The position numbers were made by a program, and so were the translations under genes. Source: a virus. Taken from it: DNA of 22,825 nucleotides. The notes beneath the pieces are model-generated. The model was not told the DNA's origin. It worked only from the letters and a program-made list of their open reading frames with translations, and did no database searches. Where the stretch lies: the IMG/VR virus record IMGVR_UViG_3300038436_000246, positions 1-22,825 of that record. One strand, written 5' to 3'. Of the stretch, positions 10,074-21,869 are shown piece after piece; position 1 is the stretch's first letter; each line of letters starts with the position of its first letter.

Positions 10074-10075
10074 GC

Positions 10076-10161
10076 TCCCCCTCACCCAACCCTCTCCCGC
10101 TAGGGGAGAGGGGGGAATATGCCTTAGTGCCTTACGCCTTAGTGCCTCAGTGCCTTTCCCT
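10076..10161. repeat. Composite intergenic repeat, copy A
   Basis: The gap between tail tube and chaperone genes is almost wholly repeat. Read on the minus strand it has units of the GGCACTGAGGCACTAAGGC type (10118-10161), then a hairpin CCCTCTCCC-CTAGC-GGGAGAGGG (stem 10090-10098 with 10104-10112) and GGGTGAGGG. The 34 bases 10128-10161 match 21787-21820 in inverse orientation with a single difference. Such CCCTCTCCC/GGGTGAGGG elements are common dispersed repeats in bacterial chromosomes. Its left end supplies the G-rich ribosome site of the chaperone gene. Confidence 0.8.
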
Positions 10162-10172
10162 AAGCCTTTCCA

Positions 10173-11219
10173 TTACGCCAACGGATCCGTGGTCAGCGTC
10201 GAGATAATCGCCAGCTGGAATGGCTCGGTGAACGCCATCCCGGTCGGGGCCGCGGCCGCGCCGTAGACGTTGAATTTCAAGCTGAACGGGATCTTGCCCG
10301 CGCCGTTGACCGGGGCCTCCGGGTTGTCGACCTTGAGATGGGTGAAGCTGAACTTCCACTGGTACTTGTAGGTGGATTCGATAGTCTTCCCGGTGAACGT
10401 GATATCCATTTTCTTGCTGATAAAACCGTCCCAGTCGGTGAAAAACGCATCATTCGCGGTGTTGTACCTGGGAAACTTCATAGTGATCGTCGCCACCGGG
10501 AAGCCGTTATCCGTAGGCTCGTCCACCCCTTCCTGGCCGGCCACCGGCTCCGAGTCCATGGGCCGGTTGAAACTGATCTCGATTTCTGATGGATAGATTT
10601 TCATCGTATCATCGAGGGCCGCGGCTGATTGATCGTTGACCCGGACCACTGTGTCCTTGTTCATGATGATCCGGTTGGCCACGTCCGGCATGGTGACGTT
10701 GGCCATGGTCACCGTGGTGTTGGTGGCGCTGGCCCGGTCGAGCTTGTCGGCGATACCATCAAAATCGATGTCCACCGGCTTGTTCATTTTGGCGACGAGC
10801 TTGAACCCGTGCAGTTTGAGCGAAGGTAACTCCCACACCTTATTACTCAGCTTGAGCTGGGCCAGGGTGCCGAACTTGCCGATGACGTTGGTTGCCAGCT
10901 GCAGGGTGTGCAGGTAGGCGGCAGTGGCCCCCTGTTGGGCCGGCGCTCCGGCCGTGCCCATGATCAGGGCCATCTGCGTTTCCAGGCCGCGGTACCGACC
11001 GTACGTCTTGAGCTGCCCCTTCAGCTCCTGCAGTCCGGCGTCCGCCTGCTGGATCCACTCCTGGCCGGCGGAATCGTCAGGCTCCGTGGCCACGGTAACC
11101 TTGATCCCGTCGGAGCGGATCAGCATGCCGTTGCCGGCGCCGCAGGCGACAGGGGTGTGCCAGGTTGCTGCCTTCTTGAGGGCGACTACGACCTCGCGGC
11201 CGGTGATTTCGTTTGCCAT
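10173..11219 (-). CDS. Major tail tube protein
   Basis: The 348-residue protein follows the head-tail joining genes and precedes the tail chaperone, the invariable position of the siphovirus tail tube protein. It starts MANEITGREVVVALKKAATW and has a beta-rich course: a FGTLAQLKLSNKVWELPSLK segment, an insert around PVAGQEGVDEPTDNGFPVA, then FPRYNTANDAFF and KYQWKFSFTHLKV near the end. It would polymerise in hexameric rings around the tape measure to form the rigid non-contractile tube. No tail sheath gene accompanies it, unlike Mu itself. GAGGAG stands seven bases before the ATG. At 348 residues it is longer than minimal tube proteins (~200), suggesting an added surface domain; that is inference. 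Confidence 0.72.
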   Translation of the reverse strand: MANEITGREVVVALKKAATWHTPVACGAGNGMLIRSDGIKVTVATEPDDSAGQEWIQQADAGLQELKGQLKTYGRYRGLETQMALIMGTAGAPAQQGATAAYLHTLQLATNVIGKFGTLAQLKLSNKVWELPSLKLHGFKLVAKMNKPVDIDFDGIADKLDRASATNTTVTMANVTMPDVANRIIMNKDTVVRVNDQSAAALDDTMKIYPSEIEISFNRPMDSEPVAGQEGVDEPTDNGFPVATITMKFPRYNTANDAFFTDWDGFISKKMDITFTGKTIESTYKYQWKFSFTHLKVDNPEAPVNGAGKIPFSLKFNVYGAAAAPTGMAFTEPFQLAIISTLTTDPLA

Positions 11220-11222
11220 GGG

Positions 11223-11417
11223 TTACTCCTCAACGGGTTGCGGTTTGCGGTTCACGGTTTGCGGTTTGCGTCCGGTCTTTTCCACTTCGCGCAGCAGGCC
11301 GCCGGCGATATAGATCCTGGCCGTCTTCTCATCCAGCTCGAACACTTCGTCTTTCACCAGCCGCCGCAGCCGGGGGTGGAATGTCTCCGGATCCGGGCCG
11401 GGGTAATAGACTTTCAT
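11223..11417 (-). CDS. Small DUF2635-like protein with repeat-derived tail
   Basis: This 64-residue protein lies between the gp37-like gene and the tail tube gene, where Mu-like phages have a ~50-60 residue DUF2635 protein. The body is MKVYYPGPDPETFHPRLRRL, VKDEVFELDEKTARIYIAGG and LLREVEKTG. The DUF2635-like pattern is an early P--G----DP segment followed by a residue-spacing motif before a final GDV/GGL. The last 14 residues, RKPQTVNRKPQPVEE-type, are encoded by a 7-bp tandem repeat and are probably a recent addition. GGAGG lies seven bases before the ATG, and the stop is three bases from the tail tube start. The family call is tentative because the protein is short. Confidence 0.55.
   Translation of the reverse strand: MKVYYPGPDPETFHPRLRRLVKDEVFELDEKTARIYIAGGLLREVEKTGRKPQTVNRKPQPVEE
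11236..11269. repeat. 7-bp tandem repeat (GGTTTGC), five units
   Basis: Five consecutive degenerate copies of GGTTTGC (one is six bases, one is GGTTCAC) run from 11236 to 11269. Because three units equal 21 bases, the minus strand encodes a seven-residue period, RKPQTVN, at the C-terminus of the small protein 11223-11417. Confidence 0.85.
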
Positions 11418-11421
11418 GGGG

Positions 11422-11859
11422 TTACCTCCATCTGGTGTAGCGCAGGGTGACGTCGATCATCTGCAGGGCGCGCGTCTCATCGATGGGCAGCGGCTTGGAT
11501 TCGCCGATGCTCACCTGCTCGCTCAGGTCAGCCACCCCGGTAAAGGTATCGTCCAGGGCCGCCAGCACCTCCTTGGCCATAACCAGGAGGCCCTTCTCGC
11601 TGGCCGAGGAGTCGCCCATGATCGCGGCGCCCGGCTTGTGCAATTTCGTGTAGATCCCGGCCCGCAGGGTCAGGACGTCCTCACCCTGATTCGCGGTCTC
11701 GGTGGCCAGGACCGTGCCGCCGTCCTTGAGGGCGATGGCCGGATAGCCGCCTGACATGCGGATCAGCTCCAGGTCCTCGGTGACGTAGATATCCACGTCG
11801 CGGACATAGGTGATGTCCGTCTTGAGTTTGACCAGGGCCGCGGCGATCAGGGCTTCCAT
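11422..11859 (-). CDS. Head-tail joining / tail terminator protein (Mu gp37-like)
   Basis: The 145-residue protein follows the DUF1320 gene and precedes the tail tube, matching Mu gp37 (DUF1834) or a tail-terminator role. Its architecture is the usual one: an N-terminal helix MEALIAAALVKLKTDI, a beta strand with YVTEDLELI, a PAIALKDGG strand, LTLRAGIYTKLHKP, a central helix SEKGLLVMAKEVLAALDD, and a C-terminal strand QMIDVTLRYTRWR. The ending V--RY is typical of terminators that cap the tube. The ATG overlaps the stop of the DUF1320 gene (TGATG), so both are made together. I judge function from position and fold pattern, not from a decisive motif. Confidence 0.62.
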   Translation of the reverse strand: MEALIAAALVKLKTDITYVRDVDIYVTEDLELIRMSGGYPAIALKDGGTVLATETANQGEDVLTLRAGIYTKLHKPGAAIMGDSSASEKGLLVMAKEVLAALDDTFTGVADLSEQVSIGESKPLPIDETRALQMIDVTLRYTRWR

Positions 11860-12281
11860 CAGTATCCCGCCAGGGTGTCGGGGTCGAACGTCCGATCCGT
11901 GCTCGATGTGGCTGGGGTGTCGGCCGGGCCGGTACCGGCCGGGTCATTGACGCCCAGGGAGATATCGCCCTTGGCCACGGAGCGCAGGAACTTGACCGCG
12001 TTGTCGTAGCGATCCTTGCGGCTCTGCGGCGGCCCGGCGCCCAGGGCATACAGGTTGAAAATGGCGATATCCACGCACAGCTTGCGGATGATGTCCGGCA
12101 CCGGCGAGAGCGGCAGGGTGTACCTGCCGCCCAGGTGGCCGTCGATCTCCACCCCGGCATCGGTGATCGCGGTATTGACCACCGCCTCGACCACCGCTCC
12201 GGTATCATCCTCGTCGGTCAGGCCAATCAGCTCCTGCTCGCGGATCTGCGCCCGGATGTCGTCAATGGTTGCGTAGGGCAT
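11859..12281 (-). CDS. DUF1320 head-tail connector (Mu gp36-like)
   Basis: The 140-residue protein has the DUF1320 pattern: YATIDDIRAQIREQELIGLTDED at the start, then VVNTAITDAGVEIDGHLGGRY, LPLSPVPDIIRKLCVDIAIFNLY, and RYDNAVKFLRSVAKGDISLG. Proteins of this family (Mu gp36, HI1506-region homologues) are head completion proteins that dock below the portal. The C-terminal 30 residues (DPAGTGPADTPATSSTDRT) are flexible and low in complexity, as is usual. TAAGGA lies seven bases before the ATG. It is two bases from the upstream gp35-like gene and overlaps the following gene. Confidence 0.88.
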   Translation of the reverse strand: MPYATIDDIRAQIREQELIGLTDEDDTGAVVEAVVNTAITDAGVEIDGHLGGRYTLPLSPVPDIIRKLCVDIAIFNLYALGAGPPQSRKDRYDNAVKFLRSVAKGDISLGVNDPAGTGPADTPATSSTDRTFDPDTLAGY

Positions 12282-12283
12282 CG

Positions 12284-12556
12284 CTATTCCTTAGGTGCTG
12301 TCGCGTCCAGGTACAGCTTGACCAGGTCGGCCTTTTTCGCACCGGCCGGGGTCGCCACCTTGAGCTCGACCAGGGCATCCGTCAACTGGGCAACGGTCAT
12401 CTTGTCAATGTCTGATTCCTGGCCATCCTCGGCCAGCACAACCACACCCAGCTCCAGCAGGCGGGACGCCTGCGCTTCCTTCAGTTCGACCTGCGCCCCG
12501 ATCGCATACGGTTTGCCGTCATGGTGGAGCGGGCTGTTCACGGTATATTTCTGCAT
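12284..12556 (-). CDS. Mu gp35-like protein with HeH/LEM-type domain
   Basis: The 90-residue protein has two small parts. Residues 1-45 (KYTVNSPLHHDGKPYAIGAQ, VELKEAQASRLLELGVV) match the short beta-rich domain found after the major capsid gene in Mu-like phages. Residues ~52-88 (DKMTVAQLTDALVELKVATP, AGAKKADLVKLYLDA) match a helix-extended-helix (HeH/LEM, SAP-like) motif, which can bind nucleic acid or protein. The gene lies between major capsid and DUF1320, the position of gp35 in Mu. AAAGGAG stands six bases before the ATG. Its function in assembly is not established for the family. Confidence 0.68.
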   Translation of the reverse strand: MQKYTVNSPLHHDGKPYAIGAQVELKEAQASRLLELGVVVLAEDGQESDIDKMTVAQLTDALVELKVATPAGAKKADLVKLYLDATAPKE

Positions 12557-12574
12557 GATGATCTCCTTTAAATA

Positions 12575-12595
12575 AGGGGGCGGAGTTCGCCCCCT
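12575..12595 (-). terminator. Hairpin after major capsid gene
   Basis: A perfect 8-bp stem AGGGGGCG/CGCCCCCT encloses a 5-base loop, just after the major capsid stop in the direction of transcription. It is followed by TATTT, so it could be a weak intrinsic terminator. It could equally be a 3' stabilising hairpin that raises the amount of capsid mRNA relative to downstream genes. Confidence 0.55.
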
Positions 12596-12596
12596 G

Positions 12597-12631
12597 TCTG
12601 TCTTCTGTCCTCTGTCAACTGGCTTCTGACT
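12597..12631. repeat. 7-bp tandem repeat (TCTGTCN), five units
   Basis: Five 7-bp units TCTGTCT, TCTGTCC, TCTGTCA, ACTGGCT and TCTGACT run up to and into the major capsid stop codon. The first three are exact at six of seven bases. It does not encode protein. Confidence 0.8.
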
Positions 12632-13562
12632 ACGCCACCGCGTCGACGATCATGTAGCCCAGATCGTTGGCGGTGATGACCTCTTTGACCGACTCGCCGG
12701 CGCGTACCCGCTGTCCGCCGCGGAGGCCGATGTCCTTGTCCGGGATGGATCCGGCGATCTGGCTGCCGAACTGGGCGGTAAATCCGAAGGTCACGCCGTT
12801 CATCGGTCCAGCGTTCCGGTCGCGGCGGAGCAGGGCCATGTGCTTGCCCCAGACCCTGGAAATAGTCGCGGCCTGACCCTTGCGGGCGGTGTTGACCCAG
12901 CCCTCGCCGACCAGGACCTCCTCCAGTTCAAACAGATCGGCGATGGCCTTGCGCTGCACAATGCCGGAATCTCCGGAGTTGCCGAGCACCGCCTTGACCA
13001 CCTTGGGGTGCATGCACAACTTGCTGAAGACCGCCCGGCCGAGGACCGCGATGTTCGGCCGCATGATGCAGGCGTCGAGCCCGGTCATGATCACTCCCAG
13101 CGGATCGGAGTTGACGAAATCAGAGAACTGGCTGGTGCCGGACAGCGTTATTTTGTTCGCGGTGGCATATTGCGTTGCATCAAACACCAGCGCTGCCGAA
13201 CGGATCTCGCGATCTAGGGCGACCAGGTCCATGATCCCCTCGGTGGCCCGGCCCAGCAGGTTATAGTTGGGCGGGGCGTTGTCGATGTCCGCCTGGGGGA
13301 TTGGATCATCCAGGCCATAGTCCTTGGTCGAGTCCGTCACCTCCGTCGCGGAGAAGCCCACCTCGTTGGGCCTGGACCTGCGGCCGACCTTGGTGTCAGG
13401 CACGGTGAACCCTTCGGCCATGGCGTGTTTCATGTATTTGAACTGCTGGGTGCCGACAGGCACCCTGGGCAGAACATCATCGGCAATCAGCCGGGGGTTG
13501 CGGTAGGCAATGGCGATGGCCGTCAGTTCCGGTTGAATGGGAAACGGTGCATTGGTAGACAT
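12630..13562 (-). CDS. Major capsid protein
   Basis: The 310-residue protein is the main shell subunit. Its start, MSTNAPFPIQPELTAIAIAY, then RNPRLIADDVLPRVPVG and EGFTVPDTKVGRRSRPNEV, is a very recognisable pattern of phage capsid proteins with an HK97-like fold. YGLDDPIPQADIDNAPP and LDREIRSAALVFDATQYA follow; the C-terminus GYMIVDAVA is also conserved. It differs from Mu's own gpT type. It lies right after the decoration protein gene and the protease/scaffold gene, completing the usual order scaffold, decoration, capsid. AAGGAG is eight bases before the ATG. A hairpin follows the gene. No proteolytic delta domain is apparent at the N-terminus, so maturation by the I-type protease may act chiefly on the scaffold. 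Confidence 0.88.
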   Translation of the reverse strand: MSTNAPFPIQPELTAIAIAYRNPRLIADDVLPRVPVGTQQFKYMKHAMAEGFTVPDTKVGRRSRPNEVGFSATEVTDSTKDYGLDDPIPQADIDNAPPNYNLLGRATEGIMDLVALDREIRSAALVFDATQYATANKITLSGTSQFSDFVNSDPLGVIMTGLDACIMRPNIAVLGRAVFSKLCMHPKVVKAVLGNSGDSGIVQRKAIADLFELEEVLVGEGWVNTARKGQAATISRVWGKHMALLRRDRNAGPMNGVTFGFTAQFGSQIAGSIPDKDIGLRGGQRVRAGESVKEVITANDLGYMIVDAVA

Positions 13563-13630
13563 GTGTGTACTCCTTATCTTGAGTTATCGTCTGTTAGTCG
13601 CAGGCAGCGGGCCTCAGTCATCAGCTCAGG

Positions 13631-14008
13631 TTATCCCTGGATCTGGCCCGGGCTGAGCTGCACGTCGATGATATCGCCGGACACTCCTGATACTCTGGCT
13701 ATGCCGATCACCCGGTTGTTAGTTCCGGCAGCCGGGGCGGCGGCCACCCCCTTGCCGTTGGCGTCGCTGGTGATCATCCCGCCACGAGTTACGGTGCCGC
13801 CGAGTTCGACCTCGGCCACGCCCACGGTTATCACATCAACCCGGTCACCTGCGGCAGCTGCTCCCAGGGAGTCTGATACTCCTAACAGGTCATCCGACAC
13901 GGCAGCGCCCTGAATTACTTTGTTGTCGGCAGCGCCGGGCTTGACGATCCGGTACGGACTGATCGCGGCCCCGGCTTCCAGATTTTCCATCAGTATTGTT
14001 TTCGGCAT
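13631..14008 (-). CDS. Capsid decoration (cement) protein, DUF2190-like
   Basis: The 125-residue protein is small, Gly/Ala/Val-rich and beta-stranded: AISPYRIVKPGAADNKVIQG, VSDDLLGVSDSLGAAAAGDR, DVITVGVAEVELGGTVTRGG, and IGIARVSGVSGDIIDVQLSP. This is the pattern of DUF2190-like capsid cement proteins that trimerise on the outer shell. Its position directly between scaffold and major capsid agrees (lambda D or SPP1-like placement). GGAGAT stands seven bases before the ATG. The 68-base gap to the capsid gene contains only the capsid ribosome site, and no promoter is visible. Confidence 0.78.
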   Translation of the reverse strand: MPKTILMENLEAGAAISPYRIVKPGAADNKVIQGAAVSDDLLGVSDSLGAAAAGDRVDVITVGVAEVELGGTVTRGGMITSDANGKGVAAAPAAGTNNRVIGIARVSGVSGDIIDVQLSPGQIQG

Positions 14009-14041
14009 GATTATCTATCTCCTGTGTTGAGGGTAAGTGGT

Positions 14042-14085
14042 GGTTAATCGCCGGTTAAACTCCGGTTACGCGCCGGTTACGTGGC
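14042..14085. repeat. 11-bp degenerate tandem repeat, four units
   Basis: Four units starting GGTTA (GGTTAATCGCC, GGTTAAACTCC, GGTTACGCGCC, GGTTACGTGGC) lie head to tail. The last two overlap the final codons of the protease/scaffold gene (GHVTGA), and the first two lie in the gap before the decoration gene. Confidence 0.75.
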
Positions 14086-14542
14086 CCACGGCCTGGGTGA
14101 CGGACACTGTCCGTCCGGCCTTGGCCTCGCTCTCTACGAATTCTCGCGCAGCCTTGGCAATGGCATCGGCATCGTCCTTGTTCGGCCCCTCTTTGTCCCT
14201 GGTCGCGATCTCCTGGAACAGGCCAGATGCGGGCAACCCCTCCAGGAAATTCATGAACCAGGCCAGCGGCGACGCCTTCTTGCCCTCGCTGAACTCCAGC
14301 TCCGCGCCGCCGTCGAGCTGCTCCATGAACTGCTTTACCCCGGCATCGAGCAGGGCAGGAGGCAGCTTGCCTTTGCCCTCTTTTGGCCAGTTGCGGGCGA
14401 TGAATTCCGTGATGCCGCGCTTGCGCTCGGCCTCCGCGAATTCGCGCTGCGCCTCTTTTTTCCCTTCCTCTTTCGCCTTGGCCGCTGCGGCGTCTGCCGC
14501 GGCCCTGACATCCGCCTCGGAGAATTGTTTTTCGTCCGGCAT
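14066..14542 (-). CDS. Nested capsid scaffold (Mu gpZ-like), internal start
   Basis: Within the protease gene, the ATG at 14542 (codon 208) is preceded by GGAGGTCATC, a full Shine-Dalgarno sequence at five-to-six-base spacing. Initiation there would give a 158-residue protein beginning MPDEKQFSEADVRAAADAAA, in the same frame as the protease and sharing its stop. Mu makes its scaffold Z from an in-frame start within I, and lambda makes Nu3 within C, so the arrangement is expected. The product is rich in Ala, Glu and Lys, with helical segments (EAERKRGITEFIARNW, AKAAREFVESEAKAGRT). It would form the internal core on which the capsid protein assembles. Confidence 0.75.
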   Translation of the reverse strand: MPDEKQFSEADVRAAADAAAAKAKEEGKKEAQREFAEAERKRGITEFIARNWPKEGKGKLPPALLDAGVKQFMEQLDGGAELEFSEGKKASPLAWFMNFLEGLPASGLFQEIATRDKEGPNKDDADAIAKAAREFVESEAKAGRTVSVTQAVGHVTGA

Positions 14543-15163
14543 GATGACCTCCGTCTTTTCCGGTTTATCGTGATAGACCGCCGAGGCCATTTCCTCCGGG
14601 CGGTTTGCTTCCTGCTTCAGGGCGTCGGCGTCCCAGGTCGGAATGACCCGGTCAGCGACCTCGACCCCGTCCCTCTCGATGAGCCATTCCCGCAGCCTGG
14701 TGAATATCTGGCCGATGAGCCCGATGGACCACGCCTCGGAAAACTCGATGTATTCCTCCCCCTCCTCGAACTTCAGGTCCGCCAGCCCCTTGACTGCCGG
14801 CGGCATGGCTCCGAGAAAGCCGACGTGCCGCAGCCGGCCGTCCGGGTAGAAGGCGGCGCTGCGCTTCTTATATCTGCCGGCCTTGACCAGTTCCTCAAAC
14901 TCGGGGACTACATCCCCGGCCAGGGCGAACAGCCGTTTGGTTCCGTCCACCACGTCGCTCTTCAGCTCGCGGATCCAGCCGAAGGCCGGGGCGTTGTCCT
15001 TGGGATGGCCGACCACCACCGGCGGCTCGTGCTCGGCCGCGTTGAAGGTGGCCACCGCCTTGTCGATCAGGGCGTCACCGTCATGTTCGGCGCCGGTGGA
15101 ATCGCGCTGCTTGCCGCCCTTGAAAATCTCTATCCAGTCGCCAAAGCCCTTGAATTCAGCCAT
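14066..15163 (-). CDS. Prohead protease-scaffold, Mu gpI-like
   Basis: The 365-residue protein is a Mu I-type capsid maturation protease fused to an assembly scaffold. The N-terminal half begins MAEFKGFGDWIEIFKGGKQ and carries EPPVVVGHPKDNAPAFGW, with likely catalytic His53, and YKKRSAAFYPDG, with likely nucleophile Ser102. This is the herpesvirus-assemblin-like serine protease arrangement. The C-terminal half from residue ~208 is helical and charged (ADAAAAKAKEEGKKEAQREF), typical of scaffolds that the protease later digests. The start at 15163 has GGGAG eight bases upstream; the open frame continues further 5' but lies over the G-like gene and looks like shadow. An internal start gives the free scaffold (see 14066-14542). 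Confidence 0.87.
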   Translation of the reverse strand: MAEFKGFGDWIEIFKGGKQRDSTGAEHDGDALIDKAVATFNAAEHEPPVVVGHPKDNAPAFGWIRELKSDVVDGTKRLFALAGDVVPEFEELVKAGRYKKRSAAFYPDGRLRHVGFLGAMPPAVKGLADLKFEEGEEYIEFSEAWSIGLIGQIFTRLREWLIERDGVEVADRVIPTWDADALKQEANRPEEMASAVYHDKPEKTEVIMPDEKQFSEADVRAAADAAAAKAKEEGKKEAQREFAEAERKRGITEFIARNWPKEGKGKLPPALLDAGVKQFMEQLDGGAELEFSEGKKASPLAWFMNFLEGLPASGLFQEIATRDKEGPNKDDADAIAKAAREFVESEAKAGRTVSVTQAVGHVTGA

Positions 15164-15165
15164 TG

Positions 15166-15678
15166 TTATTCTCCCTTGATGATGTGTTTGGCCAGGATCG
15201 CGCTGATCTCCGGGCCGTCTTCCTTCTGCACCAGAATGAACGGCCGGGCCGGAATATCGCCCCAGGGCAGTTTCACCTTGCGGGCGTGGCCCCGGACCCC
15301 GAACCTTTTGCCACCTTTGCTTGTGCGGTAGTGCGGGCCGACCTGCATGGTGAATGTCCCGAACTCTCCTTTCTTGGCGCCGTAGTTGTGCACCCCGGCA
15401 TAGACGACATTGGTTCCGACCCGGACGCTGTTCTTTGCCGGCACGCTGGTGATGGAGTTCATCAGCCGGTTGGTGTCGCGCAGCGCCTGCCCTTTGCGGT
15501 GCTGCAGCTTCGCCCATTTGTCCGGCCGGCCGGACCTGGCAAAGTTCGTCCGGATCGACTCGCGGACAATGGCGCCGACCTTGCGCATGGCCGCCGTGGA
15601 GTCGGTCATGCGATCGGCGATCCCTTCCAGGACCTTGTTGAGATCCTTGCGGTTGATTTTCAGCGTGATGCCCGGCAT
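15166..15678 (-). CDS. Virion morphogenesis protein, Mu gpG-like
   Basis: The 170-residue protein belongs to the phage virion morphogenesis family (Mu gpG, P2 gpS), which takes part in tail completion or head-tail joining. Typical features are KVLEGIADRMTDSTAAMRKV and IRESIRTNFARSGRPDKWAK, with the core N-F---G-PD-W--L, followed by LRDTNRLMNSITSV, VVYAGVHNYGAKKG, and the C-terminal IPARPFILVQKEDGPEIS. I chose the ATG at 15678, not the TTG one codon earlier, because it has GGGG seven bases upstream and overlaps the stop of the small gene before it (TGATG). The gene is two bases from the protease start. Confidence 0.88.
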   Translation of the reverse strand: MPGITLKINRKDLNKVLEGIADRMTDSTAAMRKVGAIVRESIRTNFARSGRPDKWAKLQHRKGQALRDTNRLMNSITSVPAKNSVRVGTNVVYAGVHNYGAKKGEFGTFTMQVGPHYRTSKGGKRFGVRGHARKVKLPWGDIPARPFILVQKEDGPEISAILAKHIIKGE

Positions 15679-15809
15679 CAACGAACCCCGTTTAAACTAC
15701 TTTTAAATTCCTCTGTATCGAGAGGCCGCCCCTTCGTGCGGGTGTTGGGACGCCCGCCACGGTTTTTGCAAATTAGGGCCGTTTTTGGCCTTTTCTCATC
15801 ACTGCTCAT
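15678..15809 (-). CDS. Small basic protein, 43 aa, GRP repeats
   Basis: This 43-residue frame, MSSDEKRPKTALICKNRGGR then PNTRTKGRPLDTEEFKSSLN and GVR, fills what would otherwise be a 120-base gap. Its ATG overlaps the end of the F-like gene, has AGGG five bases upstream, and its TGA overlaps the ATG of the G-like gene. It has 11 Arg/Lys residues and two GRP triplets (GGRPN, KGRPL) that resemble the core of AT-hook DNA-binding motifs; the C-terminal third is acidic then neutral. Coupled overlap at both ends and protein-like composition make it very probably real. I do not recognise a named family. A role linking DNA or portal to head assembly is only a guess. Confidence 0.7.
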   Translation of the reverse strand: MSSDEKRPKTALICKNRGGRPNTRTKGRPLDTEEFKSSLNGVR

Positions 15810-16626
15810 TTTTGCCCTGGTCGCGTCGCTTTTTTTTCAGCAGCTCTTTCAGCTCCTGCTGCCGGCTCAGCTCCTTGAGCACAGCCGTTGCCAGCTGGGC
15901 CGGGTAGGTGGCCAGCCGCTCCTGCATGGCCGTGCCCAGGTCGCCCCAGTAATCCTTGCCCGGGTTGCGCTCGAAACCGGGATCCGGCAGGAGCTGCTTG
16001 GCCGGCATTCGTTCGCCGCTGACCGGACTGACCGGCTCGATCAGCCTGCCGGTCGGGTCCTTGTCCTCGATCTTCAGGCCGCGCTTGCCCACCTGCGTCT
16101 CGGTCAGGGCGATCACCGAGCAGCGGCAGCGGTAGCCGTTGGGCGGGTACCAGGTGTCCCATGTCGGATGATTCGCCGGCCAGACCCTGCCGTTCATGGC
16201 CAGGTGCTCGGGCCGGGTGCGCGAGTCGTTGACCGCGCTGTACATCCAGTAGGGCACGACATCCACATCCTCATTCAGCTGCCGGTACCGGCCGACGTTG
16301 TAGGCGGTCTGGATGTTGGTGCGGAAGATGTTGTCCACCCGCCAGGCCCGCCTGCCGGTCCAGCCCCGGCGCTCGAAGATGTCGCCGCACTCCTTTTTGA
16401 ACTGGTCGAAGGATGTGCCCTGGTCGATGGCCCGCTGCAGGGCGGTGAACACCGTGTTCAGCTGGTCGCCCTTGGCGATGCCGGAAACCGCGAACGCCTT
16501 GACCTTGGCCTCGTCGGCCAGGGCCTTGAAATCCTTGGGCCGCATCTGGACCTTATCCTTCCAGAACTGTTGGGCCTCCCACATGGGCAGCGGCTCCAGC
16601 TTTATCCTGCCAAAATCAATCGTCAT
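15799..16626 (-). CDS. Head morphogenesis protein, Mu gpF-like
   Basis: The 275-residue protein is the minor head protein of the Mu F / SPP1 gp7 family that follows the portal gene. The diagnostic centre is IFRTNIQTAYNVGRYRQL, then YWMYSAVNDSRTRPEHLAMN with the conserved R-RPEH, and GYRCRCSVIALTE with the C-C pair. The N-terminus resembles DUF-type WKDKVQMRPKDFKALADEAK. It ends with a basic helix, LKELLKKKRRDQGKNEQ. The protein is brought into the prohead with the portal and may protect or guide the packaged DNA end. The ATG overlaps the end of the portal gene by 11 bases, and the stop lies over the start of the 43-residue gene. Confidence 0.9.
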   Translation of the reverse strand: MTIDFGRIKLEPLPMWEAQQFWKDKVQMRPKDFKALADEAKVKAFAVSGIAKGDQLNTVFTALQRAIDQGTSFDQFKKECGDIFERRGWTGRRAWRVDNIFRTNIQTAYNVGRYRQLNEDVDVVPYWMYSAVNDSRTRPEHLAMNGRVWPANHPTWDTWYPPNGYRCRCSVIALTETQVGKRGLKIEDKDPTGRLIEPVSPVSGERMPAKQLLPDPGFERNPGKDYWGDLGTAMQERLATYPAQLATAVLKELSRQQELKELLKKKRRDQGKNEQ

Positions 16627-18124
16627 CGCGTACCCGGGCCGTGGCCCGGCCGTAGAGTTCAGCGGCGTAGAGCGCCCGCTCGGTCATGTCCTGCAGCCCG
16701 GTCATGTCCAGCGCCGGGAACAGGGCCAGCAGATTGAGCTGCGCCTCCTCGAAGGTCGAGGCATCCCGCACCGCCTTGAGGATCAATGCCTCGTTTCCGG
16801 CAAGGTCCACCCCGGCAAAGGCCGTATCGGCCAACCCCTCCAGGGCCTGCTGCTCCGGTGTGAATTTCGCTTCTCCCCTCGCCCCAGGGGAGAGGGGAAC
16901 AGCCTCGGCAAACATCGGCGCTGGTCCGCCCTGCGGCACCTGGAGCAGCTTCGCCCCAGCGTCGGGCCTCGGGTAGCCGTAGGTCTCGTAGAAATAATCC
17001 TCGGCCACCGGCAGCCCCAACTCCTTGACCACGATCCGGTCCACCTCGGCCCGCGCCTGCAGATCATCGCCCTCCTCCGTGACCAGGTCGAACCAGGGAT
17101 AGAGCCGGTCCGCGAAGTTGAAATCCACGATCCAGCGGATCAGCGACTCGTTGAGGCACTCGGCCAGCAGATCGGCATCCGCCTTGCGGATATCTCCGCG
17201 CACCTCGTCCTGGGCCTCATCGTTGCCGAGCTTGCCAGGCGTCCCCTCGGTGGAGGCGGACTGACCCAGGACACGCACGGCGATCTGCCGGTCCATGTAC
17301 TCGCACATGGCCTCGTAGGAGACATTGCCTGAGCGCGCCGCCTCCAGCAGATCGATGGCCATGCCCTCCGGGATGATGATCCCGGTCTCCTGGTGGATGG
17401 CCTCGATGGCCTCCAGCAACGTATCCTTCTGCTCCTGGGTCGCTCCGGCCGGGTAGGTGCCCTTGGGGGTCGGCGAGCCGAAGCGATCGAGGAAGGTCAG
17501 CCAGAACTTGATGCCATTCTTTTTGAACCAGGTCGGCCACCACAGCGACTGGCCCAGCCCCTGGCCGTAGGGATTGTCGCTGCTGCCGAAAGTAAAACGG
17601 ATGAACTTGCGTTCCGGTACCGGTTCGCCGGTGATCATCGCCGCGCGGGTGAGCAGCCGCAGCTCCCGGTCCACGGTGAAGACGAAACGGCGCGGGTGCT
17701 TGCCGATCAATTTGCCCGGTACCCACCGTCCATCCCGTGCGATCCACAGCACCTCGGTCTCGAAATGGCCGTACAGCACCGCCTGCATCAGTTCCTGGAT
17801 CGCCTGAGTCATGTTGGTCCGGTCCAGGGCGTCCAGGACAAAATCGGCGATCTCCTGCGCCCGGGCCGAGTCGTCGGCCGGGATCACCTTCCACTCCAGG
17901 CCGGCGATGGAGAGATACCGCGTCTGCAGCACCGCCCCGGCCCGTGCGTCCCGCGCCACCTCGTCATAGAGCTTCAGCCCCTTGCCCCGCCCCTCGCTGA
18001 GCACGGTCGGGTCCGGATTCTCCAGGCGGCCCAGGTAGCCGGCAAAGATATCGATGTCCTTGACGGCGACCGCTACTTCGTCGGTGACCGGCGCGCCGGC
18101 TGTCTTTGTCTGCTCGTCGCTCAT
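16616..18124 (-). CDS. Portal protein, DUF935 family (Mu gp29-like)
   Basis: The 502-residue protein matches DUF935, the Mu-type portal: YEVARDARAGAVLQTRYLSI-like start, GLEWKVIPADDSARAQEIAD, ELMQAVLYGHFETEVLW, FGSSDNPYGQGLGQSLWWP, FLDRFGSPTPKGTYPAGATQ, and the helix with YEAMCEYMDRQIAVRVLGQS plus KADADLLAECLNESLIRWIV. It forms the dodecameric ring at the packaging vertex. Residues ~409-418 (VPLSPGARGE) are encoded by a GC-rich hairpin repeat that has entered in frame in a loop near the C-terminal domain. The ATG overlaps the terminase stop (ATGA). Its full length and intact conserved blocks suggest that it still works. Confidence 0.9.
   Translation of the reverse strand: MSDEQTKTAGAPVTDEVAVAVKDIDIFAGYLGRLENPDPTVLSEGRGKGLKLYDEVARDARAGAVLQTRYLSIAGLEWKVIPADDSARAQEIADFVLDALDRTNMTQAIQELMQAVLYGHFETEVLWIARDGRWVPGKLIGKHPRRFVFTVDRELRLLTRAAMITGEPVPERKFIRFTFGSSDNPYGQGLGQSLWWPTWFKKNGIKFWLTFLDRFGSPTPKGTYPAGATQEQKDTLLEAIEAIHQETGIIIPEGMAIDLLEAARSGNVSYEAMCEYMDRQIAVRVLGQSASTEGTPGKLGNDEAQDEVRGDIRKADADLLAECLNESLIRWIVDFNFADRLYPWFDLVTEEGDDLQARAEVDRIVVKELGLPVAEDYFYETYGYPRPDAGAKLLQVPQGGPAPMFAEAVPLSPGARGEAKFTPEQQALEGLADTAFAGVDLAGNEALILKAVRDASTFEEAQLNLLALFPALDMTGLQDMTERALYAAELYGRATARVRDDD
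16872..16893. repeat. Repeat hairpin inside the portal gene, copy D
   Basis: TCTCCCCT (16872-16879) pairs with AGGGGAGA (16886-16893) around a 6-base loop. It is the same kind of CCCTCTCCC/GGGAGAGGG palindrome as the intergenic copies, and here it is translated as PLSPGARGE. Other Mu-type portals would show whether these residues are extra. Confidence 0.65.
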
Positions 18125-19662
18125 TGCATGTACCCGTCGAATTTGGTGCCGATCCGGCCGCGGCCGGTGGACTGGTATTCAAACACGCCGCCGCCCTGGG
18201 CCTGCAACATGCTCACCGCGCCCTCCAGGGCATCCGGACCGTCGTCGTTGATGTTGCGGTTCAGGATGTAGATCAACTGTTCCACCAGCAGGTCCTGGTC
18301 GCTGTGGCCCTTCTCGAAGAGCAGCTTGCCGTACTCGACCAGGTAGGAGAGCGTCCCGATGGTCCGGGCCTCCTTGTTGGTGTTGTGCTGCACAGCCTGC
18401 CAGGGCAGGTAGCGGCCTACTTCCTTGGCGTAGTTGTAGATGGCCTCGTGCAGGAAGTCCTTGAGCATGTTCTCCTCGATGCCGATGGTCCCGCCGTAGG
18501 CGTCCACCTGCTGGTAGGCGGCGGCGAACATCTCGCCCGGGCTCGCCCTCCGGATCCAGGCATGCAGGCAGCGAAACAGCATCTTGTCGCGCTGCAGGCC
18601 CACGGTGATGATCGCCTTGTAGTCGTTGGCCTCGCCGTTCTTTGCGCTGGGATCGACAAAGGTGGCCACCAGCAACTGCGGCATGAGTACCTCGATGTGC
18701 GGCCGCTCGTAGAACTTGAACCAGGGCTCCTGGAAGGGCGAGTCATCGGCGCCGGTGAGGTTCATCATCTCGGCATTGAAGTCCCGCGTGCCCATGGTCC
18801 GCTTCTTCTTCTCCAGCCGTTCAGCCGGCCAGAGCGCGGGCCACAGGGGTCGCTGATCCTCCTTGCCGTAGTCGAGCCAGGCCCGATAGACCCTGGAGAC
18901 ATAGAGCTTCTCGCCGGTCTCGTCCTTTTCCGCGATCAGCTGGGAGAGCACCGATTTCGGATGAAACAGGTTGCCCACCATGACAAAGGTGTAGCCGGTG
19001 CCCATGGAGCCGATCACCGCGCGGCGCAGCCAGCGCAGTCCCTTCTCCACCAGCTTCGGATTCTCGACGTTCTCATCGTTCTCGAAATCATCCACCGTGG
19101 CATAGTCCGGCCGGTGCTGGCGGTTCTTCAGGCCGCGCACCTTTTCCCCCTTGCCCCTGGCCAGGGTCCGGATCCCGTTGTTCGTGGTGAAATCGCCGGA
19201 CTGCCAGACCTGGCCGCGCAGCTCGCCGAAATCGTGGCGCAGCCGGGGATTGTCTTCCAGCTCCAGCCGGATCGGCAGGGTGAAGCCGGTGGCCTGGTCA
19301 TTGGTGTCCGAGACCAGGAGCTGGAACTGCCGCAGCCCGTAGCAGATGTTGCGCACCGGGATCGCGAAGCTCCAGAATGTGGACTTCGCATGCTCGCGGG
19401 GTGCCGCCACCAACACCACCTCGTCGCGCAGCTCGGACAGCCCCTCCCACTCCTGGTGGCACTCGGCGAACGCCACCGGGAAATAGTGGGGCAGGTAGGT
19501 CTTGCAGAAATAGAGCAGATCGTTGCGGCCGCGCTCGATGCGCGCGGCCTTCTTCGCCGGGGTGTCATCCTCGAAGGGCGAGACCGACTCGGTGATCCAG
19601 CCCTTGAGCTGGTCAACCCACAGGTCAAACCTGTGCTCTGTCAGTTGCGGCCGTTTCCTCAC
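18121..19662 (-). CDS. Terminase large subunit
   Basis: The 513-residue packaging motor has an N-terminal ATPase and a C-terminal nuclease. Walker A is near residue 87 (VAAPREHAKSTFWSF), Walker B near 186-196 (DYATVDDFENDEN), with the coupling region at VIGSMGTGYTFVMVGN. The nuclease begins at LLVATFVDPSAKN with the first catalytic Asp, continues at YGGTIGIEENMLKD, and ends at NINDDGPDALEGAVSML with the last acidic residues. It pairs with the small terminase encoded just upstream. The GTG start overlaps that gene's stop (GTGA), with GAGGCAG upstream; an ATG is not available. In Mu the equivalent gene is 28. It packs DNA from integrated copies with host flanks in transposable phages. Confidence 0.92.
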   Translation of the reverse strand: MRKRPQLTEHRFDLWVDQLKGWITESVSPFEDDTPAKKAARIERGRNDLLYFCKTYLPHYFPVAFAECHQEWEGLSELRDEVVLVAAPREHAKSTFWSFAIPVRNICYGLRQFQLLVSDTNDQATGFTLPIRLELEDNPRLRHDFGELRGQVWQSGDFTTNNGIRTLARGKGEKVRGLKNRQHRPDYATVDDFENDENVENPKLVEKGLRWLRRAVIGSMGTGYTFVMVGNLFHPKSVLSQLIAEKDETGEKLYVSRVYRAWLDYGKEDQRPLWPALWPAERLEKKKRTMGTRDFNAEMMNLTGADDSPFQEPWFKFYERPHIEVLMPQLLVATFVDPSAKNGEANDYKAIITVGLQRDKMLFRCLHAWIRRASPGEMFAAAYQQVDAYGGTIGIEENMLKDFLHEAIYNYAKEVGRYLPWQAVQHNTNKEARTIGTLSYLVEYGKLLFEKGHSDQDLLVEQLIYILNRNINDDGPDALEGAVSMLQAQGGGVFEYQSTGRGRIGTKFDGYMQ

Positions 19663-20174
19663 TGCTGCCTCGCGTACTCGCCCTTGAACTGGATGATCAG
19701 CGCGTCAAAGTTGCGCGCCAGAACCTTCAACCCCTCCGGATCCATGTCCCGCAGCTTGATAGCCAGCCACTCCAGGTTGCCGAGGAACAGGGCCGGGCGA
19801 TCGATCTCCGGCGCCACTTCCTGGGTCTTGGCCGCCTCGGCCCGCTCGATATCGTCCCACTTGCGGACAATGGCCGCGGTCTTGGACAGCGTGTCCATGA
19901 CGGCGCTGTCGCGCTCAGACGGCCGCAGCCCCTTGACATAGGTGAGCTGCTCCTTGAACATCGCCCGCAGCTCATCAACAAAGGCCCGGTGCCCCTGGCG
20001 GGCCAGGTCCCATTCATCCAGGTCGGATGAGGGCCGCTTGCTCTCGGACTTCCACTTGGACAGGCTGGTGACTGACACGTCCAGCCGCTCGGAGATCTCG
20101 GTCAGGGTGTTGCCCTGGGCGTAGAGATCCTTTGACAGCCCTTCCTTGGCCGCGCGATCGCCTTTAGCTCCCAA
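19659..20174 (-). CDS. Terminase small subunit-like, HTH protein (DUF1804 type)
   Basis: The 171-residue protein has an N-terminal helix-turn-helix, LYAQGNTLTEISERLDVSVT followed by SLSKWKSE, which should bind the phage packaging site. Then come EWDLARQGHRAFVDELRAMF, a conserved W--AR element, and a long helical part (SERDSAVMDTLSKTAAIVRK, EWLAIKLRDMDPEGLKVLA) expected of an oligomerising small terminase. Mu-like phages carry DUF1804 or gp26/gp27 genes here, directly before the large terminase. The start is a TTG at 20174, with GGGAG seven bases upstream, overlapping the previous gene by 11 bases. No ATG lies near it, so the start is the least certain part of the call. Confidence 0.7.
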   Translation of the reverse strand: MGAKGDRAAKEGLSKDLYAQGNTLTEISERLDVSVTSLSKWKSESKRPSSDLDEWDLARQGHRAFVDELRAMFKEQLTYVKGLRPSERDSAVMDTLSKTAAIVRKWDDIERAEAAKTQEVAPEIDRPALFLGNLEWLAIKLRDMDPEGLKVLARNFDALIIQFKGEYARQQ

Positions 20175-20415
20175 GGCCCAACTCCCGCCGCAGCCGGTTG
20201 ATCTGGCTGTTCACGCCCTGCAGCTTGACCGCGGCCGTCTCCAGGTTGCGCATCTGCTGCGCCGCCATGGCGATGTCCATACTTTCAGGGTCGCTTAATG
20301 CCGGGTTGATCTCCTCGCGGATCACCCGGCACAGCCCCTCGATGCTCATGCGCAGCTGCAGCCGCTCCTGCTCCAGGACCGACAGCCGGCCCAGCATCTG
20401 ATCTCTCTCGCTCAT
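20164..20415 (-). CDS. Small coiled-coil protein, Mu gp26-like
   Basis: I place the start at the ATG at 20415, which forms an ATGA overlap with the previous gene, and not at the in-frame ATG 45 bases upstream. This gives 83 residues, almost wholly helical: MSERDQMLGRLSVLEQERLQ, LRMSIEGLCRVIREEINPAL, AAQQMRNLETAAVKLQGVNS and QINRLRRELGLGS. Heptad-like leucines suggest a coiled coil. The gene is between a membrane protein and the small terminase, as gp26 is in Mu. Its function in that family is unknown; a link between lysis and packaging modules is not supported by anything I can see. Confidence 0.65.
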   Translation of the reverse strand: MSERDQMLGRLSVLEQERLQLRMSIEGLCRVIREEINPALSDPESMDIAMAAQQMRNLETAAVKLQGVNSQINRLRRELGLGS

Positions 20416-20750
20416 TCGTCGATGTCCTTCGGGTTGGTTTTTTTGCGCACCAGCGGGCAATACTGATTGTGCCTCGCCATGTTCGTCGCATCCGACACGA
20501 CCTGGGTGGTGTAGACCAGCTGCTCCCGGTAGTCAGTGCCCAGCTTCTGCGTCTCCTGGACCAGGAGCACGTTGTCCTCGTACATCTTGACCACCGATTC
20601 AAAGCGCCGCTGGTGCTGGAATGAGGTGTAGGCGTTGACCACCCACGGCCCCAGCACAACTAGGACCACGATGGACAGCACCGGCCAGGTGCCGATTGAT
20701 TCAACTATGCCGGCCAGGGCCGTAATGGTTGCAAGCTGTTCCGGGGTCAT
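20412..20750 (-). CDS. Membrane-anchored coiled-coil protein, DUF2730-like (Mu gp25)
   Basis: From the ATG at 20750 (ATGA overlap with the zinc-finger gene) the product is 112 residues. An N-terminal helix MTPEQLATITALAGIVESIG is followed by one membrane segment, WPVLSIVVLVVLGPWVVNAY, then a helical, charged cytoplasmic or periplasmic part (SFQHQRRFESVVKMYEDNVL, LVQETQKLGTDYREQLVYTT) and a polar tail (NQYCPLVRKKTNPKDIDE). DUF2730 proteins of Mu-like phages have this plan and lie in this place. A lysis role such as holin-like pore or inner spanin is possible because the lytic transglycosylase is nearby, but there is no direct sequence evidence. A longer 144-codon frame starts further upstream and overlaps the zinc-finger gene; I reject it. 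Confidence 0.65.
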   Translation of the reverse strand: MTPEQLATITALAGIVESIGTWPVLSIVVLVVLGPWVVNAYTSFQHQRRFESVVKMYEDNVLLVQETQKLGTDYREQLVYTTQVVSDATNMARHNQYCPLVRKKTNPKDIDE

Positions 20751-20962
20751 CGTGATTTCAATCGCTCCTTCTGTGATTTGCACGGAGCGCACAGGGTGCA
20801 TCCTGGCATGGCCACCCGTCGCTCCATGGGGATCTCCTTTTCGCACCAGGCGCAGATGGGAGCGCCGAGCCCTTCCTTGCCCGCGTCGCCCCGGGCGATC
20901 TCAATGAGCGCGGCCATCTCACGCGGCTCGTTCGCTGTTATGTCGTCTATAAAATCAGGCAT
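20747..20962 (-). CDS. TraR/DksA-type C4 zinc-finger protein
   Basis: The 71-residue protein, MPDFIDDITANEPREMAALI onward, ends in a four-cysteine zinc finger, ICAWCEKEIP with GCTLCAPCKSQKERL, as in TraR/DksA proteins. Small phage members lack the long coiled coil of DksA and may bind RNA polymerase's secondary channel. They are common in the lysis region of Mu-like phages. The start at 20962 is chosen because the N-terminus PDFIDDITA is typical and the longer upstream reading (to 21061) is repeat-encoded (PHPACGRPLPAGEGNF). The repeat reaches up to the start codon, so the ribosome site is only TGAG. The ATG of the next gene overlaps its stop. Confidence 0.8.
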   Translation of the reverse strand: MPDFIDDITANEPREMAALIEIARGDAGKEGLGAPICAWCEKEIPMERRVAMPGCTLCAPCKSQKERLKSR

Positions 20963-21040
20963 AAGGCACTCAGGCACGGAGGCACTCAGGCAAAAGTTAC
21001 CCTCTCCCGCTGGGAGAGGTCGGCCGCAGGCCGGGTGAGG
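20960..21040. repeat. Composite intergenic repeat, copy B
   Basis: Read on the plus strand, GGCATAAGGCACTCAGGCAC-type units (20958-20990) are followed by a hairpin CCTCTCCC-GCT-GGGAGAGG (21001-21008 with 21012-21019), a small CGGCC/GGCCG hairpin and GGGTGAGGG. The order of parts is the same as in copies A and C. It lies directly upstream of the zinc-finger gene start. Confidence 0.75.
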
Positions 21041-21090
21041 GCCGCCCGTTTCCATTTCCATATCTCGTGCAGCCGCTCCAGCCAGGCCAC
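20986..21090 (-). CDS. Possible 34-aa ORF, C-terminal half repeat-encoded
   Basis: From a GTG at 21090 with GGGGGAAGA upstream the frame reads MAWLERLHEIWKWKRAALTR then PAADLSQRERVTFA. The first 15 residues are amphipathic and look plausible, whereas LTRPAADLSQRERV is the classic translation of the GGGTGAGGG/CCCTCTCCC repeat. An ATG at 21135 would extend it to 49 residues. It could be a small lysis-region gene whose end was overwritten by the repeat. Weak evidence. Confidence 0.25.
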   Translation of the reverse strand: MAWLERLHEIWKWKRAALTRPAADLSQRERVTFA

Positions 21091-21146
21091 TCTTCCCCCT
21101 GCATGCGTAGGATGTGGTGAGCTTGCGAACCGCATCGCGTCCTTCT

Positions 21147-21650
21147 TCACGCCTCGATCATTCCCAGCCGGATCGCCTCGATCCGCCTGACGTAGTCCGT
21201 TGTCTGCTTGGCATTGGACCCGCCCGTCACCTCCGGCAGCATGGCCCGCACCGCTTCCCAGACTGTCGGCCGGTCGGTCAACTCCTGGGCCTTGATGATA
21301 TTCCCCGGCCCGGCGTTGTAGGCCCCGAAGGCGAAGCGCAACCGCTCCAGCCCCTCCTCTTTTTTAAAGATGCCCCACATCTGCCGCAGGTAGTGGCAGC
21401 CGAACATGATGTTGGTCTTGGGATCGTCCAGGTTCGGCACGACCTGGAAGTGCTTGGCGATATCCTTGGCCGTGCCGGGCATGATCTGCATGATCCCCCG
21501 CGCCCCGACCGGCGATACCGCGTCATGGCGCAGGCCGCTCTCGGCTATGCCCTGGGCCTTGAGCCAGGGCCAGGAGACCAGGCCGTCGAAGTACATGAAT
21601 GCGAACTGCTGAAAGTATTTGTCGTACTCTTTGGTCACCTCGGCCTCCAT
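21147..21650 (-). CDS. Lytic transglycosylase (SLT), phage endolysin
   Basis: The 167-residue protein has the soluble lytic transglycosylase fold: LKAQGIAESGL with the catalytic Glu, then SPVGARGIMQIMPGTAKDIA, NIMFGCHYLRQMW and FAFGAYNAGPGNI. It cuts peptidoglycan and releases 1,6-anhydro products at the end of the lytic cycle. No signal peptide is visible, so it needs a holin or another route. The ATG at 21650 has AGGGG at about nine bases, but a GTG five codons in has GGAGG at exactly five bases and may be the true start (MTKEYDKYFQQF). In Mu the lysis gene is also first in the late operon. The upstream hairpin may mask the ATG's ribosome site. Confidence 0.9.
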   Translation of the reverse strand: MEAEVTKEYDKYFQQFAFMYFDGLVSWPWLKAQGIAESGLRHDAVSPVGARGIMQIMPGTAKDIAKHFQVVPNLDDPKTNIMFGCHYLRQMWGIFKKEEGLERLRFAFGAYNAGPGNIIKAQELTDRPTVWEAVRAMLPEVTGGSNAKQTTDYVRRIEAIRLGMIEA

Positions 21651-21659
21651 ACACGTTTA

Positions 21660-21683
21660 CCCCTGGCGGTCACCCGCCAGGGG
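21660..21683 (-). promoter_or_regulatory. Strong hairpin in leader of transglycosylase gene
   Basis: A perfect 10-bp stem, CCCCTGGCGG/CCGCCAGGGG, encloses a 4-base loop, ten bases before the ATG at 21650 on the minus strand. Its 3' arm includes the AGGGG that would serve as the ribosome site, so the RNA hairpin could hold back translation of the lysis enzyme. No U-run follows, so it is not a standard terminator. Confidence 0.5.
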
Positions 21684-21786
21684 AAGGATGAAGAAGAGCG
21701 CCCGCTGCCGTTGCTCTTACTGAGGTTTATAGGAGATTTGCGGGGAGGTGTTTAGCCGGATGGGTCGGGATATATATGTATGGGTA

Positions 21787-21862
21787 AGGGAAAGGCACTG
21801 AGGCACTGAGGCGTAAGGCAAGAAGAACCCCTCCCCCTTGACGGGGGAGGGTTGGGGTGGGG
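21787..21862. repeat. Composite intergenic repeat, copy C
   Basis: On the plus strand, AGGGAAAGGCACTGAGGCAC and continuation to 21820 match copy A with one mismatch over 34 bases, in opposite orientation. They are followed by CCCTCCCCC-TTGAC-GGGGGAGGG (21829-21851) and a GGGTTGGGGTGGGG tail. The stretch 21684-21786 beside it has a weak 6-bp stem (AAGAGC/GCTCTT, near 21695-21719) and an AT-rich stretch (ATATATATG near 21768-21776) that could be part of a late promoter; no clear -35/-10 pair is visible. Confidence 0.8.
21829..21851 (-). terminator. Terminator-like hairpin after the 77-aa gene
   Basis: A 9-bp GC stem CCCTCCCCC/GGGGGAGGG with a 5-base loop lies 19 bases after the stop at 21870. 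On the minus strand it is followed by GTTCTTCTT, a pyrimidine-rich stretch. It may separate the regulatory gene pair from the late operon. The stem belongs to repeat copy C, so the terminator may have come with the repeat. Confidence 0.5.
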
Positions 21863-21869
21863 GTGGAGG

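Follow-up and report, generated by a model that had tools for sequence, protein, structure and literature searches.

Systems that combine repetitive extragenic palindromes (REPs), or the hairpin-forming REP doublets called REPINs, with a REP-associated tyrosine transposase (RAYT, or TnpA-REP) are already known (PMC3116915, PMC8266576 and PMC2817692), and intergenic arrays of short tandem units have been described as GGGAATC in Xanthomonas and GGGGATT in Nostoc (PMC4692102), TAACTGA in Beggiatoaceae (PMC4679880), and paired octamer sites in Geobacter metallireducens (PMC2700814). Mobile elements of the P. fluorescens group have been reported as REP deserts, devoid of these palindromes (PMC3390384), and no heptamer arrays were present on the plasmids examined in PMC4692102. 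Both kinds of repeat occur between the late genes of a Mu-like phage on the stretch of DNA analysed here, positions 1 to 22,825 of the virus record IMGVR_UViG_3300038436_000246 (the window, 22.8 kb).

As in known REP/REPIN/RAYT systems, the element at 21107-21136 of the window and the REPINs of a related phage and its host (L092/G003) are GTAG-headed short palindromes of families that occur as inverse pairs at RAYT genes, and are intergenic; unlike those systems, they lie in phage late-gene junctions. The arrays resemble the described heptamers and octamers in their period of 7-8, their mostly intergenic position, their occasional inverse pairing and the use of an own unit per genome, and differ in being phage-borne and partly host-matched. 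Composite REP clusters such as bacterial interspersed mosaic elements (BIMEs; PMC2817692) likewise combine REP modules of alternating orientation into mosaics, whereas here the palindrome is partnered by a short tandem array and assembled inside a phage. In the literature searched, neither REPIN insertions carried by phages nor phage arrays matched to a host were reported, which is not proof that none exists.

The repeats probably represent separate insertions, made at different times, of REP-type palindromes and 8-bp arrays from the host lineage into the late-gene junctions of the phage, with the GTAG-headed REPs and the REPINs moved by RAYTs. This reading is directly supported by empty and filled junctions, host-type modules, module swapping, a RAYT in the metagenome-assembled genome (MAG) that holds a sister phage, and the RAYT association of two REP families.

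Three composite repeats in late-gene junctions

An earlier note on the window had described three copies of a composite repeat, and all three are present at 10076-10161 (A), ~20960-21040 (B) and 21787-21862 (C). Each joins an array of AGGCACTN octamers to a CCCTCTCCC/GGGAGAGGG palindrome and a tail resembling GGGTGAGGG; these parts, with a neighbouring REP, are as follows.

10079..10087, minus strand: copy A tail GGGTGAGGG, a few nucleotides ahead of the tail chaperone ATG at 10072
10090..10112: copy A palindrome CCCTCTCCCGCTAGGGGAGAGGG
10119..10161, minus strand: copy A octamer array AGGCACTN, with one irregular unit (GGCGTAAGGC)
20964..20992, plus strand: copy B octamer array AGGCACTC/AGGCACGG
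21000..21041, plus strand: copy B REP unit CCCTCTCCC-GCT-GGGAGAGG, hairpin GGCCGCAGGCC, and GGGTGAGGG
21787..21813, plus strand: copy C octamer block, matching that of A in inverse orientation
21829..21864, plus strand: copy C palindrome CCCTCCCCCTTGACGGGGGAGGG with a G-rich tail
21107..21136, plus strand: GTAG-headed REP GTAGGATGTGGTGAGCTTGCGAACCGCATC, between the endolysin gene and copy B

The claimed agreement of the A and C unit blocks was reproduced by the best ungapped 34-mer comparison (33 of 34 bases, opposite orientation), but copies B and C share one orientation and A alone is reversed, so that the description of two inverse copies has to be corrected. The array, palindrome and tail do recur in the same order in all three, more loosely than had been proposed: the C palindrome is a variant, CCCTCCCCC..GGGGGAGGG, its tail is GGGGTGGGGG, and B has an additional GGCCGCAGGCC hairpin. 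Searched for as tandem repeats, the octamer arrays span 10120-10161 (minus strand), 20964-20992 and 21793-21813 (both plus strand). The AGGCACTNAGGCA motif (up to two mismatches) occurs 11 times in the window against 2.4 expected, with no more than 6 in any of 100 shuffles, and the CCCTCTCCC..GGGAGAGG palindrome, found in A and B, has an expectation of 0. Gaps make up 4.4% of the window and contain all seven repeat features, including the three copies as had been claimed, except that about one tenth of A and about one third of an 11-mer array overlap called genes. The REP at 21107-21136 and three further arrays (11234-11270, 12597-12628 and 14042-14079) had been missed.

Empty and filled junctions among related phages

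Relatives were examined by protein comparison and junction alignments, tblastx with default statistics yielding noise. They are partly redundant (L322 and L323 are near-identical), and open reading frames (ORFs) were called mechanically. The closest, L008, has a terminase 96% identical and DNA about 85% identical across the shared block, and its contig is identical to QZJD01000062.1 of the MAG 'Desulfobulbus sp. SURF_48', which thus holds a sister phage of that in the window.

Insert B, of about 80 bp, ends exactly at the start codon of the zinc-finger gene. The same site in L008, L142 and L322/L323 reads through without interruption (GGAAACGGG-AACATG and similar) between colinear flanks, and the insert shows no target duplication. 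Since B is in frame with an upstream ATG in the window, the zinc-finger protein may be extended at its N-terminus through the insert. Copy A is missing from L042 and L327, which have a short gap between colinear flanks, while L326, whose tail protein is 84% identical, has the A composite with a GTAG-REP added, and L092 has a REPIN unrelated to the A copy of the window. Junction A is thus found in four states: empty, octamer plus palindrome, GTAG-REP plus octamer plus palindrome, and REPIN. At junction C, the window and L008 have the palindrome in common but differ in the array part; a related G/C-rich piece is seen in L142, and L322/L323 have a second palindrome inserted there. In the gap after the endolysin gene, the window, L322 and L323 have a GTAG-REP, L008 and L142 have octamers, and L092 has a REPIN; the region of the 11-mer array of the window is occupied by a palindrome in L008 and an octamer array in L142.

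Because relatives have other pieces at these places, or no repeat there at all, the repeats appear to be mobile. The junctions anticipated to be empty in relatives are empty for B and A, and the proposed mobility follows from the filled and empty sites, but it seems to belong to separate modules rather than to the composite as a unit. Presence at the same place in free-living relatives had been named as a refuting result; presence in relatives is seen for the C palindrome (L008), probably for the A composite (L326), and not for B, which is absent from four relatives. B would accordingly be the youngest insertion, as it is lacking in relatives, and the palindrome half of C, being common to L008, would predate the split from that phage; the A composite, also present in L326, is probably older than the window lineage.

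Could these repeats rather serve the phage itself, as hairpins between cistrons or as arrays that bind a regulator, and so tune late expression? The copies lie at gene starts, the tail of A could provide a Shine-Dalgarno sequence, B and C have hairpins, two of them terminator-like on the transcribed strand, and such roles have been proposed for the Geobacter paired octamer sites and the Beggiatoaceae heptamers (PMC2700814, PMC4679880). This is nonetheless very unlikely, as place, orientation and sequence are not conserved between phages with 80-84% identity in the flanking proteins, and B displaces the sequence ahead of a start codon. A scan for intrinsic terminators listed the B and C hairpins on the minus strand with weak tails, and the 17 terminator-like sites found do not exceed expectation (11.0, standard deviation 3.6).

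RAYT genes and their REPs in the host lineage

SURF_48 encodes a RAYT (NF047646, 190 bits against a cut-off of 80; G002:C20:2045-2920) that is bracketed by inverse GTAG-REPs of the family of the window element at 21107-21136. The same family flanks RAYT genes, again as inverse copies, in G233 (C12) and G025 (C128). The window element itself has the GTAG head followed by a GATGTGGT..ACCGCATC stem, as expected of a REP, but not a high copy number in the genomes scanned: with up to three mismatches it matches 4 of the 258 genomes of the class, one copy each, and it has no match in SURF_48 at the same threshold. The SURF_48 RAYT is also flanked by inverse octamer arrays (TTAGGGGA x12 and CCTAATCC x4.6) and by a 29-bp piece present on both sides on the same strand; the TTAGGGGA unit type recurs in the phages L322 and L323. 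These arrays have the look of telomere-like G-rich repeats around a transposase. A RAYT-family match exists in 222 of the 258 genomes of the SURF_48 class (119 over the cut-off).

The strongest case is independent of the window. Phage L092, binned in G003, forms a separate phage-host pair with REPINs at junction A and after the endolysin gene; each consists of two inverse REPs and a spacer (fold z of -7.1 and -3.4) and is cognate to the host RAYT, which lies on a 198-kb contig of G003 and is bracketed by the same REP family. In G003 this REP is present 29 times, with three of those copies on the phage contig; ten other genomes lack it.

Because Mu-like phages transpose through the chromosome and have host DNA attached to their ends, homologous or illegitimate exchange with that DNA, packaged or flanking, might replace REP transposition as the source of the repeats; host DNA packaged at both ends is described in PMC5977238, and the lack of a target duplication at B would agree with such an origin. 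We consider this unlikely, because the inserts are exact small repeat modules with no adjoining unique host sequence, and because the two L092 REPINs, at different junctions, have common ends and part of the spacer in common.

Short tandem arrays in phages and hosts

Besides the octamers of the composites, the window has three arrays:

11234..11270: tandem array of 5.3 CGGTTTG heptamers, in the gap upstream of the tail gene, its unit repeated in L092 too
12597..12628: tandem array of 4.6 TCTGTCT heptamers, in the gap upstream of the gene at 12284-12556
14042..14079: 11-mer array GGTTAAACGCC x3.5, at the junction of the protease gene and the next gene

Among 79 terminase relatives, 134 arrays of period 7-8 were counted in 1.15 Mb (11.7 per 100 kb), or 122 arrays at 71 loci in 1.02 Mb (12.0 per 100 kb) once near-duplicates were removed. 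This is about 17 times the density in four other Mu-like phages, which have one such array in 151 kb. Nearly half of the arrays (65/134) lie outside the called ORFs, in 5.9% of the DNA, and in several phages the arrays at different places are built from a unit particular to that phage, for example CAGGAGT in L021, GAAGGGT in L030 and AGGAGTA in L038. In four phage-host pairs, array units were common to the own host in 8 of 31 comparisons and to other hosts in 4 of 124 (Fisher p = 3e-4), these being small samples of 150-420 kb per host with prophage contigs and stretches excluded. Array density in the hosts ranges from 2.3 to 13.1 per 100 kb and brackets that of the phages. Inverse-paired short arrays, tens of bases apart like hairpin arms, are seen at several places per phage or prophage in L044, L054, L028, L076 and L095.

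Such arrays might also have arisen in place, by slippage from local seeds in unconstrained junctions, host replication or repair favouring them, phage and chromosome having this mutational process in common and no transfer being needed. Quite different array units occupy one junction in sister phages, the phage densities resemble those of two hosts (12.7 and 13.1), and polymerase slippage is cited as a proposed cause of heptamer abundance (PMC4692102). This explanation is possible and somewhat unlikely: it cannot produce REPs or REPINs, the matching of units between phage and host is specific, and the 34-base block common to A and C is irregular and inverse, and therefore calls for copying.

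Repeat modules on host-lineage chromosomes

The REP unit of B is a dispersed palindrome of REP type, repeated in chromosomes of the host lineage. Its 28-base signature (GGGAGAGGNNGGCCGNAGGCCGGGTGAG) occurs in 4 of 74 host-family genomes (twice in SURF_48, 12 times in G097, 20 times in G098 and once in G099), and a reversed control pattern has no match in the first three. Since heptamer-like stretches follow the signature in G097 and G098 (for example CTTCTGTC and CTGCCGA), a REP followed by a short array appears to be a chromosomal style as well, with other units. The AGGCACTN octamer was counted with a 20-base pattern, as a 13-base pattern gave near-chance counts; it has matches in 11 of the 258 class genomes, most in G011 (12) and G018 (11), where no RAYT-family match was found, and often forms the two inverse arms of a longer element.

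Several results weigh against an origin by insertion from the host lineage. The complete composite was not found in 395 genomes of the phylum Desulfobacterota (one match, without the array), so that the modules are host-type, as the earlier note had it, but the composite as a unit is not; being found as a unit on no chromosome, it is best read as a mosaic of separately moving modules, gained and lost one by one. The count on the host chromosome that had been proposed gives few repeats in SURF_48: two copies of the B signature, and for the octamer one chromosomal array and one on the phage contig. The palindrome unit of B also occurs in unrelated virus contigs, often inside ORFs there, and is therefore not host-specific by itself. 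The sequence shows no GTAG head for the CCCTCTCCC palindrome common to A, B and C, and a neighbouring RAYT was not seen, although no systematic search was made; a RAYT as mover would thus apply to the GTAG REPs and the REPINs. Folded as single strands, A, B and C do no better than shuffles (z of -0.8 to -1.6), the host links depend on MAG binning, and short arrays (period 6-7) occur at 5 of 30 RAYT loci of the class, against 1 of 20 control stretches (period 10).

This last comparison bears on a wider reading, in which late-gene junctions would trap host RAYT-driven REP transposition and so keep a record of independent insertions by host-cognate REPs, the 7-8-bp arrays would belong to the same machinery, and phages would spread both between hosts. 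The arrays are drawn in because the SURF_48 RAYT is bracketed by inverted octamer arrays; RAYTs in general lack flanking short arrays, so the link comes from one locus, and we regard this wider reading as rather unlikely. A general association of RAYTs and arrays was dropped, the 30 RAYT loci giving no support.

Related arrangements occur on other virus contigs. In L119 (7600-7690), which has no protein similarity to the window phage, the palindrome stands between two inverse octamer arms, and L560, L226 and L561 have a GGGAGAGG..GGCCGNAGGCC..GGGTGAGGG unit inside long ORFs, in at most three copies per contig.

The window phage and its host lineage

On its minus strand the window has a Mu-like late gene set (terminase, portal, MuF-type head protein, protease, major head protein and tail genes), which also includes an endolysin, a zinc finger of DksA type and a regulator of pRha type. 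The PHROGs and Pfam matches are ordinary late genes, and an Rfam search gave no match. The genes next to the repeats, and the terminase, are these:

9339..10085, minus strand: tail assembly chaperone, downstream of copy A
10173..11219, minus strand: tail protein, upstream of copy A
18121..19662, minus strand: terminase large subunit, used as query for collecting relatives
20747..20963, minus strand: DksA/TraR-type zinc-finger gene, its start codon abutted by insert B
21147..21650, minus strand: endolysin (SLT transglycosylase), between B and C

The terminase has 28 genome matches, mostly in Desulfobacterota. Judged from these relatives, the phage probably infects sulfate-reducing bacteria of this phylum. 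The last 75 bases of the window (22751-22825) are identical to the end of another contig, L555 (12071-12145; IMGVR_UViG_3300038436_000260, 12.1 kb), which on this ground probably represents the early half of the window phage. L555 has another copy of the B REP unit (9202-9231), in the 3' part of a gene.

Proposed origin and significance

Under insertion from the host lineage, GTAG REPs and REPINs would be carried onto phage DNA by the host RAYT, a single-strand HuH enzyme, during prophage residence or phage replication. Octamer and heptamer arrays would seed with or beside REPs, or from host DNA; they may be carried along, copied between junctions, as A and C suggest, or grown in place, and would later lengthen or shorten by slippage. 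Selection would then keep the repeats between genes, because insertions elsewhere break genes. The action of the RAYT on phage DNA, the order of these events and any effect on gene expression are inferred.

To our knowledge, fresh REP movement has almost never been seen. Clean differences in REPs and arrays at the same junctions of sister phages date such events, and supply unoccupied sites for comparison, donors matched to the host, and a candidate for the enzyme. Phage-borne REPs run counter to the reported REP-free mobile elements (PMC3390384), and phages may offer a route for the horizontal spread of heptamer arrays that was proposed without a mechanism in PMC4679880.

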